A stretch of DNA of 43,836 nucleotides, from assembly GCA_030649955.1 (NCBI GenBank), contig JAUSFD010000002.1, forward strand, positions 1 to 43,836, read 5' to 3'. The number at the start of each line of letters is the position of its first letter. Position 1 is the first letter of the stretch. Below, one piece after another: positions 25,775 through 42,205 of the stretch. The notes under the pieces were generated by a model. It was not told the DNA's origin. It ran no database searches and worked only from the letters and a program-made list of their open reading frames with translations. Origin of the DNA: Candidatus Peregrinibacteria bacterium. Its GTDB lineage: Bacteria; Patescibacteriota; Gracilibacteria; Peribacterales; Peribacteraceae. A program made the translations under genes and the position numbers.

Positions 25775-26296
25775 ATGCTACTGCGGCTCCCCATTGTCGC
25801 GCTCCTGCTCCTGGCCCCCGCGCTCGCCCTTGCGCATCCCTCGGGGCAGCTGTTCGAGGCGAAGGTGGGTGAACTCACGATCGATGGTGGCTGCAATGAG
25901 ATAGCGTTTTACGCCGGTCTCGAGACATTCTGTAGCTTCGGAATCATCGAGGGTGCAGGTTCGTTCGACTGGACGCTCGTCCCCCATGACGTGCTCACCG
26001 TGACGATTACACCGAAAGACGGTGAGAGCGCACCAATCGAGCAGAGCAATCCTGGCGAGCCAGAGGTAATGACCTTCTTCTCTCTCACGTTCCCCCGCGC
26101 TGGGGACTACACGATGAATGTGCGCTTCACGGAGGGGACGGACGTCATCGCGGAGGCGGCTTTCCCTGTGACTGTGCAGGGAGAGGACCAGCTGCGGTTC
26201 GTGAAGCGCGTCGTCTCCGCTGCGGTCCTCGGCATCCTCGCGATCATCACCGTTGCGCTCACAATCTCTGCTATCCGCGTCCGGCCTCGATCTTGA
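25775..26296 (+). CDS. Exported membrane-anchored protein, copper locus
   Basis: A 173-residue protein with a signal peptide (LPIVALLLLAPALALA, cleaved before HPSGQLF), an extracytoplasmic immunoglobulin-like beta domain (LTFPRAGDYTMNVRFTEG...AAFPVTVQ) and one C-terminal membrane helix (VVSAAVLGILAIITVALTIS). As with both neighbours, the mature N-terminus begins with His, the residue used by CopC-type His-brace copper sites, though I cannot show that this protein has one. The start ATG 25775 is set by the signal peptide. Its stop overlaps the next start by four bases (TTGA), so the two are translated together. Confidence 0.75.
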   Translation: MLLRLPIVALLLLAPALALAHPSGQLFEAKVGELTIDGGCNEIAFYAGLETFCSFGIIEGAGSFDWTLVPHDVLTVTITPKDGESAPIEQSNPGEPEVMTFFSLTFPRAGDYTMNVRFTEGTDVIAEAAFPVTVQGEDQLRFVKRVVSAAVLGILAIITVALTISAIRVRPRS

Positions 26297-29127
26297 AGAA
26301 GCTACTCTCCCTCGTCTGGCTGATCGCGCTTGCCTATCCCCTAGGGGCCGCAGCGCATGCGACACCGACACTCTACGAACCCGAAGCGTCCGCGGTTCTC
26401 GAGAGTGCACCCGATCGTGTTCGCATCCGCTTCTCGGAGCGAGTCGAGCCGGGTGCAAGTGCGATCGCGGTGTTCGCACCCGATGGAACGCGAGTGGAAG
26501 AGGGCAAAGCAGCACGGGATCCGCAGGATTCGTATCTCCTGTCCGTCGGCATTCGCGCAACGGCAACCGGGAGCTACGCAGTCTCTTGGCAGGTGGTCTC
26601 CGCGGATGACGGACACTTCACGAAAGGCGCGTACCTCTTCTCCTACGGGAGTGCGAGTGCGGAGTCCACGGGCGTGCAGTTCACTGTGACGTATCGCTCT
26701 TCCTACCTTGAAGCCCTGTTCATCTGGCTTGAACTGCTGGGACAAGCACTCCTCCTAGGAGCACTCGTGTGCTGGCTGCACTTCGTGCGTCCGTTCAATT
26801 TGCAGTCGGATGGAGTGGCAGCGCAATTTCGACGGAGGTTCTCCGCATTTTCCACGACTGCCTGCGGACTCATCGTCCTCGGGACAATGGGGTACATCTC
26901 GTACAAAGCATGGCAGATCGCACCGGATAATCCGCTGTCCGCTCTGCGCGCGATGCTCTCGACGGTCTCAGGGAGTTACGCGGCAGTGCGCGGCATTCTC
27001 GGTCTCATTGCTCTCACAGTTGTGTGGCCTTTAGGGGCAAAGGACCGTCAGCGTCGAGCGCGTGAGATTCTCCTCACTCTCCTCCTCATCGCGCTCGTTC
27101 TGCTGCGCGCGAGAGTCAGTCATGCTGCGGCATCGCACACGCTCCCCGTCTTCTCTGTCCTCGTGACTGCGGTGCACCTCCTTGCGAAGAGCTTCTGGAT
27201 CGGGACCGTCCCCGCGTTCGTCTTCCTGGTCGTTCCACTCCTGGAGGGGAAAGGTGCTGCCGTGCGCGCTCGTGCACTCATCACACTGTCGCAGCTCCTC
27301 GCATTCGCCCTCGGTATCGGCGGGGTCACCGGTGTGTACATCGTGTGGCTGCACCTGAAGACGCTCGGGAATATCCAAGCGACACACTGGGGAATGCAGT
27401 TCGTACTGCTCACCCTCTCCGCAGTCCTCCTGCTCGGCTCGCGACTATGGCAGCAGTACAAAGGTGATCGAGCACACCTCACCGCAACGCAGGGGAGCAT
27501 TGGGCGCAGGGAGAAGGAGATCCTCGGGAATGCGGGAATCTTCCTGATCACGGAAGCAATTGTGGGCATCGGCGTCCTCTACTTCTCGAGCGTGCTCATC
27601 ATCACCACGCCGCCAGTCCGCGGAGGGGAAGAGTTCACGCAGAGTGTGACGAGTCAGGGGGTGAAACTCACACTTGCTGAGCATCCCTCGGATCGCGACG
27701 TTCTCCTGCTCACGAGCGGAGACAGCGATAACACGGTGAAGGAGGTGATCGTCACGCTGACGAATGCGGAGCGAGGCATAGGACCCATCGTCGCTCCTCT
27801 CGAAAGACGATTCCCGGGTGGGTACGCCCTGAAGAAGAGTGCCCTCACGCCACCGGGACAGTGGACTATTGATGCAACGGTGCAGCGGGGAGGTGCCTAC
27901 GATGCTACGGCGAGTTTCAAGGTCGATGCTCCCGCTGATTTCGCATCCACATCACAGGAAATGCGCACTCTGGATGGCTTCACATGGTTGATGATTCTCT
28001 CTGCACTCGCGGTCCTCCTGCTCGCATTCTCCCTGTATCACATGGGCGCGCGGATGGCAGCGAAGATCGGCCAAGCGAATCCTGTCCTCCCCTCCCTCAC
28101 AACGGAACACCCGTGGATAATCGCTCTCACGAACATCACTGCCCTCCTGATCCTCGCAGTCATCTTGAACATGCATGGACACGGCAGCTTCCAGCGCGCA
28201 TGCCGGGCCATCGGCGGCATGTGGCACCAGAGCGTGCCGATGCGCGCAGGGCGCATCACCTCCGATGCACCGATGATGGGGTGCATGGTGGGCTCCGGGA
28301 AAGGCCAGGAGCACTTCTCCGATGCCCGCGAGTTTGCGGAGTTCCTGCGACCAGCGCAGGCGAAAGCACAGATGCAGGTTTCACCCGCTGCCCCGCGGGT
28401 TGATCAGAACGTGACGCTCACCTTCACGCTCACGGACCTGCAGGGCAATCTCCTCCCCAATCTGCGTATCGAGCATGACCGCATCCTGCACGTCATCATT
28501 GTTGGCCAGGACACGGATACCTTCGCCCACATCCACCCGGAGGACACAGGCTCGATCACGCCGACAATGCTCGCAGAGGGGAAGTTCTCTGTGCGCACAT
28601 CCTTCCCGAAGGCAGGACGCTACTTGATCGCCGTCGACTTCACCGTACGCTCGCAGACCTTCGCACAGGAGTTCACGGTGACGGTTCCTGGAGCGAATCC
28701 CATGGTGCCCTTCACAGAGACGCCGTCACTCGTGAGTGATATGCACGAGTACATCGTCCATCTACAGAAACCAGAACCGCTGCAATCTGGCTCTCTACAG
28801 AAGCTCTCGTTCACCGTCGAGAAGGACGGGAAGCCCGTGACCGATCTGCAGCCCTATCTCGCTGCTCCCATGCACCTCGCAGTCGTGAAGCAGGACCTGC
28901 GCCGCTTCCAGCATACGCACGCACTCGTCCCGCAGACGCTCTGGCAGCGGATGACCATGCCTCGCAATCCGAACGCGAAGCACCTGCACATTGTGCTCAG
29001 CGAGGGCTTCGGCCCGACGCTCGAGGCCTTCGTAAGCTTCCCCTCCCCCGGTCGCTACACCCTCTTCGGGGAATTCCGGCACGAGAACGAAGTGCACCGT
29101 GCGCGGTTCGTGATGGATGTGGAGTGA
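26293..29127 (+). CDS. CopC-CopD fusion with two C-terminal His-rich beta domains
   Basis: A 944-residue membrane protein for periplasmic copper binding and probably import. After a signal peptide the mature protein begins AHATPTLYEP: His22, plus Asp105/106 and His108 in SADDGHFTKG, reproduce the CopC Cu(II) site. A CopD-type membrane domain follows (about 130-460), then an extracytoplasmic domain, further helices at about 565-625 and a long C-terminal tail. The tail holds two related beta domains: LRIEHDRILHVIIVGQDTDTFAHIHPE ... SFPKAGRYLIA, and LAAPMHLAVVKQDLRRFQHTHA ... FPSPGRYTLFGEF. Both are rich in His and resemble YtkA/FixH-like modules. YcnJ-type CopC-CopD fusions are known; the added paired domains make this one nearly twice as long. 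The start is TTG at 26293, overlapping the previous stop. Confidence 0.85.
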   Translation: MKKLLSLVWLIALAYPLGAAAHATPTLYEPEASAVLESAPDRVRIRFSERVEPGASAIAVFAPDGTRVEEGKAARDPQDSYLLSVGIRATATGSYAVSWQVVSADDGHFTKGAYLFSYGSASAESTGVQFTVTYRSSYLEALFIWLELLGQALLLGALVCWLHFVRPFNLQSDGVAAQFRRRFSAFSTTACGLIVLGTMGYISYKAWQIAPDNPLSALRAMLSTVSGSYAAVRGILGLIALTVVWPLGAKDRQRRAREILLTLLLIALVLLRARVSHAAASHTLPVFSVLVTAVHLLAKSFWIGTVPAFVFLVVPLLEGKGAAVRARALITLSQLLAFALGIGGVTGVYIVWLHLKTLGNIQATHWGMQFVLLTLSAVLLLGSRLWQQYKGDRAHLTATQGSIGRREKEILGNAGIFLITEAIVGIGVLYFSSVLIITTPPVRGGEEFTQSVTSQGVKLTLAEHPSDRDVLLLTSGDSDNTVKEVIVTLTNAERGIGPIVAPLERRFPGGYALKKSALTPPGQWTIDATVQRGGAYDATASFKVDAPADFASTSQEMRTLDGFTWLMILSALAVLLLAFSLYHMGARMAAKIGQANPVLPSLTTEHPWIIALTNITALLILAVILNMHGHGSFQRACRAIGGMWHQSVPMRAGRITSDAPMMGCMVGSGKGQEHFSDAREFAEFLRPAQAKAQMQVSPAAPRVDQNVTLTFTLTDLQGNLLPNLRIEHDRILHVIIVGQDTDTFAHIHPEDTGSITPTMLAEGKFSVRTSFPKAGRYLIAVDFTVRSQTFAQEFTVTVPGANPMVPFTETPSLVSDMHEYIVHLQKPEPLQSGSLQKLSFTVEKDGKPVTDLQPYLAAPMHLAVVKQDLRRFQHTHALVPQTLWQRMTMPRNPNAKHLHIVLSEGFGPTLEAFVSFPSPGRYTLFGEFRHENEVHRARFVMDVE

Positions 29128-39071: not shown

Positions 39072-39170
39072 CTCTGTTTGAAGCCTGTGACACACGCAGA
39101 ACGATCACGTGCGAAAGGGGGCAGCCTCGCCCTCCTTCGCTACACCGAGACTCTGAAACCGCCAACCCCA

Positions 39171-39193
39171 GCGTAGCCGTATCGCAGATTTGG
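39171..39193. repeat. Fragment of the tRNA-end repeat (GCGTAGCCGTATCGCAG core)
   Basis: The 23 bases from GCGTAGCCG to ATTTGG are identical to the last 23 bases of both full-length repeats at 40614-40726 and 41483-41594. The rest of the element is missing or decayed here. Confidence 0.65.
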
Positions 39194-39284
39194 AAGTATT
39201 TTCAGAAAGAGTAGTGGGCCACGTTTGTTTCCTCAAGGAAGCAGAATGGAATAGTATCCTTGAAGATTTTCCCCCGTCCCAACC

Positions 39285-39833
39285 ATGCGCACACCCCAGC
39301 TCATCGTGATGACAAGTATGTTCCTCTTAACACTCACAGCGTGCCAGTCAACAGAGCCTCAAAAGAGTGCGACTTCTTCACATGTCTCAAAAGCTGTCGC
39401 CGTCCTCACTCCATCGAGTGGCAGTTCCGTTCGAGGAACGGTGACCTTCAGTGAAGAGAATGGAAGCGTGACGATCTCTGCGTCTCTCACGGGACTCACA
39501 CCGGGACAGCATGGGTTCCATATCCACGAATGGGGCGACATCAATTGCAGCGATGGAATGTGTACCGGCAGTCACTTCAACCCGACAGGTTCCCAGCACG
39601 GTGATGCCGACGCAACGGAGCGACATGTCGGTGATCTGGGTAACAGCGATGCTGACGCCAGCGGGAATGCCACATTCCAGCGGACGGATAGCGTTCTCTC
39701 GCTGAATGGACCGCACTCAGTGATCGGTCGCGCCATCGTTGTCCATGCCAATCAGGACGACTTCTCCCAACCGACGGGAAATGCCGGCGGACGCGTCGCC
39801 TACGGTGTCATCGGCATCAGCGAGATACAGTAA
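39285..39833 (+). CDS. sodC: Cu/Zn superoxide dismutase, lipoprotein
   Basis: A 182-residue extracytoplasmic Cu/Zn SOD that converts superoxide to H2O2 and O2. Lipobox LTAC gives a lipidated Cys20. Metal ligands are all present: Cu site H79 and H81 (GFHIHEWG) and H154 (VVHAN); bridging/Zn H97 (GSHFNP), H105 (SQHG), H114 and D117 (ERHVGDLGN). The active-site Arg is R170 in GNAGGRVAYGVIGI. The conserved Cys that normally follows this Arg (RxACG) is Tyr173 here, so the classical subunit disulfide cannot form; C88 and C93 in DINCSDGMC could make a local bridge instead. It fits the oxidative theme with the haem peroxidase, which would use the H2O2 product. Confidence 0.93.
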   Translation: MRTPQLIVMTSMFLLTLTACQSTEPQKSATSSHVSKAVAVLTPSSGSSVRGTVTFSEENGSVTISASLTGLTPGQHGFHIHEWGDINCSDGMCTGSHFNPTGSQHGDADATERHVGDLGNSDADASGNATFQRTDSVLSLNGPHSVIGRAIVVHANQDDFSQPTGNAGGRVAYGVIGISEIQ

Positions 39834-40079: not shown

Positions 40080-40610
40080 ATGAAGCCTAGGATCACTTCC
40101 CGTTTCGCACTGCCGCTCGTTACAGCAGCCTTGCTCTTCGCAATCGTTGCCCCCGTAGCGCATGGCGCCATCAGGGCCGTGGGAAAGCACAAAGGAGACT
40201 ATCTCCCTGCACATAACTTCAAACTTGAAATCGACGGCGTCATTTCCGGCGGATTCAAGGAAATCAGCGGGCTAGAATCCGAAATAGAGGTGATCGAATT
40301 CAGGGATGGCGATGATCCCATCACACACAAGCGGGCGGGAATCCATCGCTACGGCAACATCGTGCTTAAGCGCGGCCTCATGGACGAGTCGGATGAACTC
40401 CGCCAATGGTACAAGAAAGTGCTTGCAGGCCAGACCGATCGTAAATCAGGATCCGTCATCTATCTGGACCGTGCGGGACAAGAGGTGCTGCGCTACAACT
40501 TCTTCGAGGCATGGCCGTGCAAATGGAAACTGCCCGAACTCTCTACGGATGGCAGTTCTGCTGCTACCGAAGAAATCGAGATCTGTCTGGAGAAGATAGA
40601 GCGGAAATAG
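40080..40610 (+). CDS. Phage/T6SS-type tail tube protein (gp19 family) with Sec signal peptide
   Basis: A 176-residue protein. Residues about 38-175 match the T4 gp19/tail-tube family used in phage tails and extracellular contractile injection systems: NFKLEIDGVISGGFKEISGLESEIEVIEFRDG, then HRYGNIVLKRGLMDESDELRQWYKKV, then SGSVIYLDRAGQEVLRYNFFEAWPCKW, ending EEIEICLEKIE. In phages and injection systems this protein has no export signal and assembles in the cytoplasm. Here a textbook signal peptide precedes it: basic start, core FALPLVTAALLFAIVAPV and an AHG/A cleavage region. No sheath, baseplate or other tail gene is nearby, so it is an orphan, followed four bases later by a tRNA-end repeat. 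Function unknown; a surface tube or polymer is possible. Confidence 0.85.
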   Translation: MKPRITSRFALPLVTAALLFAIVAPVAHGAIRAVGKHKGDYLPAHNFKLEIDGVISGGFKEISGLESEIEVIEFRDGDDPITHKRAGIHRYGNIVLKRGLMDESDELRQWYKKVLAGQTDRKSGSVIYLDRAGQEVLRYNFFEAWPCKWKLPELSTDGSSAATEEIEICLEKIERK

Positions 40611-40613
40611 TTT

Positions 40614-40726
40614 TGGCAGCCCCACGGAGAACCCGGCTCCGTTCCTGCGGGAACTACGCCGCGGCTTCGTCGAACTCCGTTTACAACCATGCTGCCTACC
40701 GCGGCGTAGCCGTATCGCAGATTTGG
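40614..40726. repeat. 113-bp element beginning with tRNA-Glu 3' end, copy 1
   Basis: It opens with TGGCAGCCCCACGGAGAA, identical to the first 18 bases (CCA, acceptor and T-arm side) of the tRNA-Glu gene at 42131-42205. It ends with the GCGTAGCCG...ATTTGG core. Internally CTACGCCGCGG (40654-40664) pairs with CCGCGGCGTAG (40699-40709). It differs from copy 2 by one substitution and one indel. It begins four bases after the tail-tube stop codon. Confidence 0.8.
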
Positions 40727-40841
40727 AAATACAATGATGAGAGATCATCGTCCTACAGCCTCGCGGCGAAGTCGGGTGGCAGCCCTGAAGATTCTCAACG
40801 AAAACTCCCTTATCAAGACAATGATAGACTGGTGCCGGTTC

Positions 40842-41482: not shown

Positions 41483-41594
41483 TGGCAGCCCCACGGAGAA
41501 CCCGGCTCCGTTCCTGCGGGAACTACGCCGCGACTTCGTCGAACTCCGTTTACAACCATGCTGCTACCGCGGCGTAGCCGTATCGCAGATTTGG
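41483..41594. repeat. 113-bp element beginning with tRNA-Glu 3' end, copy 2
   Basis: Direct-repeat partner of 40614-40726, nearly identical over 112 bases. One change makes the left palindrome arm CTACGCCGCGA, which shortens the internal stem by one pair. It sits between the upstream end of the hypothetical gene and the stop of the GIY-YIG gene. Confidence 0.8.
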
Positions 41595-41595
41595 C

Positions 41596-41874
41596 TTATT
41601 TCTCTTGTTGCAGGGTATGTCTCAACATCAGTTTCAATGCGCGCTTCCCCATCGTTGTTTTGAAGTATTGTTCTCTACGCAGAGCATCACTTTTGTTCGA
41701 ATAACATTCGAAGAACACCAGGTGCCACGGTCTTCTGCTTTTCGTGGATCTCACTTTCCCGGCATTGTGCGTCAGCAGACGGTCACGGAGTTTTGTAGAG
41801 AATCCGACGTACAATTGACGATCGAGGGTACTCCGGAGAACGTACACAAAAATACATAGCAGACCACTATACAT
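41596..41874 (-). CDS. GIY-YIG domain protein (UPF0213/YhbQ-like)
   Basis: A 92-residue stand-alone GIY-YIG nuclease-fold protein: FVYVLRSTLDRQLYVGFSTKLRDRLLTHN carries both tyrosines (VYV and LYVG in place of GIY and YIG) and the conserved Arg. GKVRSTKSRRPWHLVFFECYSNKSDALRREQYFK holds the Glu region. Small members of this type are common in CPR and other bacteria; some act on DNA, and their role is uncertain. The N-terminal MYSGLLC may not be native. Its stop codon abuts the second 113-bp repeat and its start is next to the repeats beside tRNA-Glu, suggesting a link with mobility. Confidence 0.8.
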   Translation of the reverse strand: MYSGLLCIFVYVLRSTLDRQLYVGFSTKLRDRLLTHNAGKVRSTKSRRPWHLVFFECYSNKSDALRREQYFKTTMGKRALKLMLRHTLQQEK

Positions 41875-41920
41875 GTGTCCCGTAGCAGCCCTGCAGTTGC
41901 GCTCCGCTTCACTGCTGGGC

Positions 41921-41995
41921 GCTACAGGGCCACGCAGTACGGCATTTCTAGAGTGAGTGGCCTGCCATGCAGTCGTCGAGCCGCAGCGAGACGTA
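41921..41995. repeat. 75-bp direct repeat beside tRNA-Glu, copy 1
   Basis: An exact copy of 42051-42125 at a spacing of 130 bases (GCTACAGGGCCACG ... GCGAGACGTA). The segment between the copies is unrelated low-information sequence. No open frame is supported. Confidence 0.8.
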
Positions 41996-42050
41996 GGATA
42001 TCCCCGTAGCAGATGCTCCTCTGGAGAAAAGGACGCAAGTCCAACGCATC

Positions 42051-42125
42051 GCTACAGGGCCACGCAGTACGGCATTTCTAGAGTGAGTGGCCTGCCATGC
42101 AGTCGTCGAGCCGCAGCGAGACGTA
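42051..42125. repeat. 75-bp direct repeat beside tRNA-Glu, copy 2
   Basis: Second exact copy, ending five bases from the tRNA 3' terminus. In this copy CACGCAGTAC (42061-42070) is an inverted repeat of GTACTGCGTG (42123-42132), which includes the first two bases of the tRNA CCA complement, so the repeat and tRNA end together form a long hairpin. Confidence 0.8.
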
Positions 42126-42130
42126 CTGCG

Positions 42131-42205
42131 TGGCAGCCCCACGGAGAATCGAACTCCGATTAGCGGATTGAAAACCCGCTGTCCTAACCGTTAGACGATG
42201 GGGCC
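42131..42205 (-). tRNA. tRNA-Glu (anticodon UUC)
   Basis: On the minus strand the 75-base gene begins GGCCCCATCGTCTAACGG and folds as a full cloverleaf: acceptor GGCCCCA/TGGGGCT, D arm, anticodon stem GCGGG/TCCGC around TTTTCAA (anticodon TTC), and T arm CGGAG-TTCGATT-CTCCG. The CCA end is encoded. The G1-U72 end pair is a wobble. It is the only tRNA gene I find in the window. Its 3' portion is copied in the repeats at 40614 and 41483. Confidence 0.95.

Follow-up and report, generated by a model that had tools for sequence, protein, structure and literature searches.

Tail tubes are viewed as parts that are assembled in the cytosol and driven out of the cell by contraction. Hcp of type VI secretion leaves the cell via the T6SS and not through Sec. 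The inner tubes of extracellular contractile injection systems (eCIS), e.g., Pvc1/Pvc5 of PVC, Afp1/Afp5, the tube of the Algoriphagus CIS, and All3324 from Anabaena, are the solved relatives, by sequence, of the protein described here. Signal-peptide-bearing subunits that form hollow extracellular tubules have been described for the Pyrodictium cannulae (CanA/B/C) (PMC4187195); these belong to different organisms and offer only an analogy for how the protein could work.

Analysis of the window (the whole stretch of DNA that was analyzed, 43,836 nucleotides from a Candidatus Peregrinibacteria bacterium) revealed a gene with an ATG start that encodes a full-length member of the gp19/CIS inner tube family (Table 1). 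The PF06841 profile matched residues 44 to 174 over profile positions 2 to 134 of 134, with 127 bits against a cutoff of 28.2, and TIGR02241 matched with 106.5 bits against a cutoff of 62.4; the protein thus lies above the curated cutoffs of both profiles. An AlphaFold2 monomer model of the mature protein was generated, and a Foldseek search with this model gave 7b5h_AN as the top match. In VIA-align comparisons, eCIS tube and cap chains gave Z scores of up to 15.5 (138 residues), Hcp (6bdc), which shares the general fold, gave 12.8, and the T4 tube gave 11.8. The eCIS inner tubes named above share the families and the predicted fold of the protein (Z, 13 to 15.5 over about 137 residues; phmmer E value to All3324, 3e-18). 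Unlike them, it has a predicted Sec signal peptide, and its genome is without sheath, gp25, and CIS adaptor matches. A conserved disulfide was also considered, for which there was no evidence, as the second cysteine (mature position 140) is present in just 7 of 73 relatives.

Table 1. Positions of the gp19-type gene and its parts in the window
Feature	Position	Strand	Basis
Gene for a predicted exported gp19-type tube protein, whole gene, 176 aa	40080..40610	+	ORF; PF06841 E 5e-37; TIGR02241 E 9.5e-31
Predicted Sec signal peptide, residues 1-29, probable cleavage between AHG and AIR	40080..40166	+	Sequence features; counts versus spurious ORFs and other gp19 proteins; same feature in paralogue and exported clade
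Mature gp19/eCIS-tube domain, 147 aa	40167..40607	+	AlphaFold2 pLDDT 86.4; Foldseek 7b5h_AN E 7.8e-11; VIA-align Z up to 15.5
In-frame GTG, codon 34, rival cytosolic start	40179..40181	+	Start-codon inspection

Residues 1 to 29 of the protein (MKPRITSRFALPLVTAALLFAIVAPVAHG) comprise an n-region with a charge of +3, an unbroken hydrophobic core of about 18 residues (mean KD of 2.8 over 12 residues), and a cleavage motif with AHG before and A after the predicted site. Export signals were scored with a simple Sec rule based on a 12-residue core. This rule was positive for none of 84 spurious ORFs in the window, for 1 borderline case among 191 other gp19 relatives, and for nearly every member of the exported clade described below; the clade member that it missed (L009) has a short lipoprotein signal that falls below the 12-residue core. 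Export of the window protein through Sec is a well-supported prediction, and the signal would then be cleaved and the mature protein released or located at the surface. Loading signals of eCIS effectors are described as hydrophilic (PMC11297309), which is not what the strongly hydrophobic N-terminal segment of the window protein shows. A CIS component would be a cytosolic subunit without a Sec signal, and both genomic copies of gp19 carry a predicted one. A preliminary description of this locus had named a full gp19-type tube domain behind a clean signal peptide and had proposed a comparison with Hcp and gp19 structures. The domain was borne out by the profile match over its whole length, the tube fold by the monomer model, for which eCIS tube and cap chains were closest, and the signal peptide by its three regions and the Sec-rule counts.

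The second gp19 copy is located on contig C11 of the source genome. It is 57% identical to the window protein over the full protein and has its own signal peptide. Comparison of the mature domains of the two copies revealed a dN of 0.28 and a dS of 1.83, and the signal part has 27% identity; by this measure, the mature domain is under purifying selection. Adjoining the second copy on the same strand (L004:7047-9454, minus strand) are genes for two secreted proteins, one zinc-protease-like (HTFGLNHQDE) and the other a DUF7450/MopE protein; this may be an exported gene set.

Among 353 genomes of the class, gp19 above the family cutoff was found only in the source genome, and the same was true among 380 genomes of the phylum. 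A scan of species genomes identified 62 relatives. A survey of relatives for the same export signal and for injection genes revealed exported forms in two archaea, a Myxococcaceae MAG, and a cyanobacterial MAG, with the searched sheath and/or gp25 genes lacking. The first archaeal form (L011, Pacearchaeota MAG) has the signal MKTKIIVIIIAGFLLFNVFTLS, directly followed by AIRKTG; the second (L146, genome G692) comes from the same phylum and was found by searching that phylum. Besides its lipobox, LAAC, the Myxococcaceae protein (L006) carries a long N-terminal part; the lipobox of the cyanobacterial protein (L009) is LSGC. Further candidates were not counted as exported. Long-ORF gp19 matches from Myxococcota (frames of 310 to 560 aa) were considered as exported fusions, and those fetched have no signal segment. 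A protein from Euryarchaeota (L047) was set aside as ambiguous, since it could start conventionally at a GTG past its hydrophobic segment and falls outside the exported clade. In G018, a genome of the same family as the source, L176:2482-5250 encodes a large exported protein with a signal peptide, repeated charged segments that are probably coiled-coil, and a Cys-rich end. This protein holds a 47-residue gp19-like piece with 21.2 bits, which is below the family cutoff.

Phylogenetic analysis placed all six exported proteins in a single clade (support, 100/97) together with a cytosolic one, L005, and a single origin of export was not rejected (P = 0.11). L005 is the tube of a real Myxococcales CIS cluster with adjoining sheath genes. 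It is 56% identical to the window protein and has the N-terminal motif IR..KHxGDYLPAHNFKLEIDGV in common with it, but it starts with Met in the cytosol. Alignment of the mature exported N termini (AIRAVGKHKGDY, AIRSVGKHKGDY, and AIRKTGSQGDY) with the cytosolic one (MIRQRTKHNGDY) revealed that the mature exported protein (AIR..GDYLPAHNF) begins at the position of the L005 Met (MIR..GDYLPAHNF). Since the mature N termini line up with this Met, the signal peptide seems to have been inserted just before the old cytosolic start. A phage origin was also considered: none of 50,697 phage records was matched in a tblastn search with the mature domain. Among viral contigs, there was a single distant match (33%), and plasmid matches were below 45% identity and either annotated as phage tail proteins or unannotated.

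The archaeal genome G692 encodes exported forms of the CIS_tube adaptor (PF19266, the LysM adaptor), in one case fused to gp19. The fusion protein of 570 aa (L146:3740-5452) consists of a signal peptide, 130 aa of unassigned sequence, gp19 with an insert, and then PF19266 (E value, 1.3e-19). About 165 bp downstream, L146:5617-6261 encodes a protein of 214 aa with the signal peptide MKRFVPILVSILVLFVLVVSSASA and PF19266 (E value, 1.1e-13). The cytosolic adaptors of CIS clusters have no signal at the start and a LysM part at the end; in contrast, the exported adaptors have a Cys-rich tail in place of the C-terminal LysM. That one locus exports two parts of the same subassembly speaks for a contact between them that persists outside the cytoplasm. 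As the window's genome is without a PF19266 adaptor, the G692 case backs the group and not the window protein directly.

On balance, the evidence leans slightly toward a tube subunit that is derived from a cytosolic CIS tube, leaves the cytoplasm via Sec, and acts outside the cytoplasmic membrane, with no recognized contractile injection system in the cell. The ancestor would have been an ordinary cytosolic CIS tube, such as the Myxococcales CIS cluster still encodes. A signal peptide would have been gained ahead of the old start, and after cleavage the mature protein would begin about where the old one did. The mature protein may still form hexameric rings or short tubes at the cell surface. 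The window protein has retained 12 of 12 nearly invariant gp19 positions and an intact inter-strand loop region, which favors ring formation, and ring or tube assembly outside the membrane would be the likeliest use. A role in partner-cell contact, by attachment or as a conduit, is speculation based on how cells with such small genomes are expected to live; it would fit a small, probably episymbiotic cell. The reuse of the tube fold outside the membrane, which the preliminary description had proposed, is well supported, given a clade over two domains of life, the absence of the machine, and the export of the adaptor in one archaeon; the self-assembling surface tube or secreted polymer that it had also suggested would be one possible form of this reuse.

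Polymerization cannot be assumed for the whole exported group, because some relatives have an altered loop, a lost Trp, or inserts. An exported barrel that does not polymerize is thus a serious rival and, although the less probable reading, a substantial one: the tube barrel would now be a periplasmic or surface domain with a binding, structural, or enzyme-accessory role, as a monomer or single ring. Several features of the exported relatives (L006, L146, and L011) point in this direction, namely, anchoring by lipid, long additional domains, and loop changes. The inter-strand loop is changed in L009 and L011 (in the latter it is shortened, and there is an insert), and the conserved Trp is lost in L006. 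L006 is a lipoprotein whose long N-terminal part matches the gp19 profile over 20 columns only, around YxFxEAWP, with a model pLDDT of 59; this only suggests a tandem gp19. In L146, the gp19 insert is bracketed by Cys, and the fused adaptor is without LysM. The G018 protein, which is large, Cys-rich, and exported, has only the short gp19-like piece below the cutoff. The full domain, invariant positions, and intact loop of the window protein argue against a nonpolymerizing barrel, and the gp19-adaptor fusion of G692 agrees with a preserved ring geometry.

The predicted export depends on the ATG start. The GTG at codon 34 sits where a cytosolic tube would start, and the paralogue has one at the expected cytosolic start too. 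If translation began at this GTG, the protein would be an orphan tube of the ordinary cytosolic type, and an upstream open frame would have been mistaken for its hydrophobic segment. GTG and TTG are among the start codons used in the window, and no Shine-Dalgarno-like sequence was seen upstream of the window ATG. A start at codon 34 is nevertheless improbable. Two diverged copies each keep an ATG and a complete signal peptide; the signal of the C11 copy has diverged to the low identity given above yet is still a signal peptide, which counts against this start. A ribosome-binding-like sequence lies ahead of the signal-peptide start in L009 (GAGGAG before ATG) and in L006 (Shine-Dalgarno-like AGAGG), the stretch of L011 from the signal to the domain core is free of start codons, and such a segment is found in only the one borderline case among the other gp19 relatives. 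The N-terminal 33 codons have an in-frame coding score of 0.09 (coding mean, 0.17; wrong forward frames, -0.41 and -0.17), which favors the signal-peptide start and is supportive but not decisive. A misplaced start, which the preliminary description had considered a threat to its proposal, thus finds little favor in the diverged copy and in the starts of the relatives; given the rival GTG, the ATG remains the start that we infer.

Families of the injection machinery were searched one by one in the source genome (G000; 1.67 Mb, 34 contigs, 98.6% complete). No matches were found to the sheath (PF04984), gp25 (PF04965), or the CIS adaptor (PF19266). In control genomes with a cytosolic gp19, the sheath was found in 5 of 5, gp25 in 6 of 6, and the adaptor in 5 of 6. 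Among the genomes with an exported gp19, the sheath was absent from G000, G419, G420, and G421 (G692 being outside the sheath search), and gp25 was absent from all five, G692 included. These genomes are partly incomplete MAGs, so that each single absence is weak evidence, but the pattern is not. By these gene searches, it is well supported that the exported form goes with a lack of the searched sheath and/or gp25 genes, whereas genomes with the cytosolic form have them. The absence of sheath, spike, and baseplate genes nearby, as noted in the preliminary description, was right for the neighbors examined, and the genome-wide search for sheath, gp25, and adaptor gave no match elsewhere. No conserved neighbor of gp19 hinted at a function. 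A complete injection system on missed contigs or with very diverged genes, which would use the window protein conventionally or secrete it, is very unlikely. The genome is split into contigs and slightly incomplete, and the searches spanned three families, sheath, gp25, and adaptor; but none of these matched, CIS tubes are not Sec substrates, and the domain is above the cutoff in 0 of 352 other genomes of the class.

Contamination or misbinning, with a contig foreign to the genome, is highly improbable: a sporadic distribution, a closest cytosolic relative from Myxococcota, a MAG contamination estimate of 1.57%, and a neighboring glycosyltransferase without a close homologue in relatives (33% at best) would fit it, but two copies lie on two contigs, and the window tetranucleotide signature is closest to the contig of the C11 copy (r = 0.91) and then to the same-family genome (0.85), with lower values for all other loci tested.

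A broader and rather unlikely proposal concerns the whole clade: having acquired a signal peptide, this small group of tube proteins would have crossed the membrane and been passed among archaea, larger bacteria, and a CPR-type bacterium. In these cells it would form an extracellular ring or tube without a sheath, joined in one archaeon by an exported adaptor; this would be a new surface tubule derived from an injection machine. No report of a Sec-exported gp19 protein was found in the literature searched, a search with most subscription papers outside its coverage. If the proposal is true, a sheath-less tube subunit exported singly through Sec would uncouple the tube from the machine, and it would offer bacteria and archaea that are small and probably host dependent a simple means of building a hollow extracellular structure. 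A second look is worthwhile for some of the tube genes that carry the annotation "phage tail protein" in tail-less genomes.

Analysis of the gene surroundings revealed a repeat of about 118 bp at window positions 40614-40731 and 41483-41599, with a partial copy at 39161-39198. The 3' end of the tRNA-Glu gene at 42131-42205 (minus strand) recurs as the first 28 nt of this repeat, and the gp19 stop codon lies 4 nt ahead of the first full copy. The copies bound small gene cassettes, i.e., superoxide dismutase with gp19, a 207-aa ORF, and a 92-aa ORF, and look like tRNA-derived attachment repeats or tRNA pseudogenes. A perfect direct repeat of 76 nt (41920-41995 and 42050-42125) adjoins the tRNA-Glu gene. 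The superoxide dismutase, encoded at 39285-39833 about 247 bp upstream of gp19, is of the Cu/Zn type and has a lipoprotein-type signal. At 26293-29127, the window encodes a 944-aa protein with a match to CopC, a periplasmic copper protein, over its first 117 residues.
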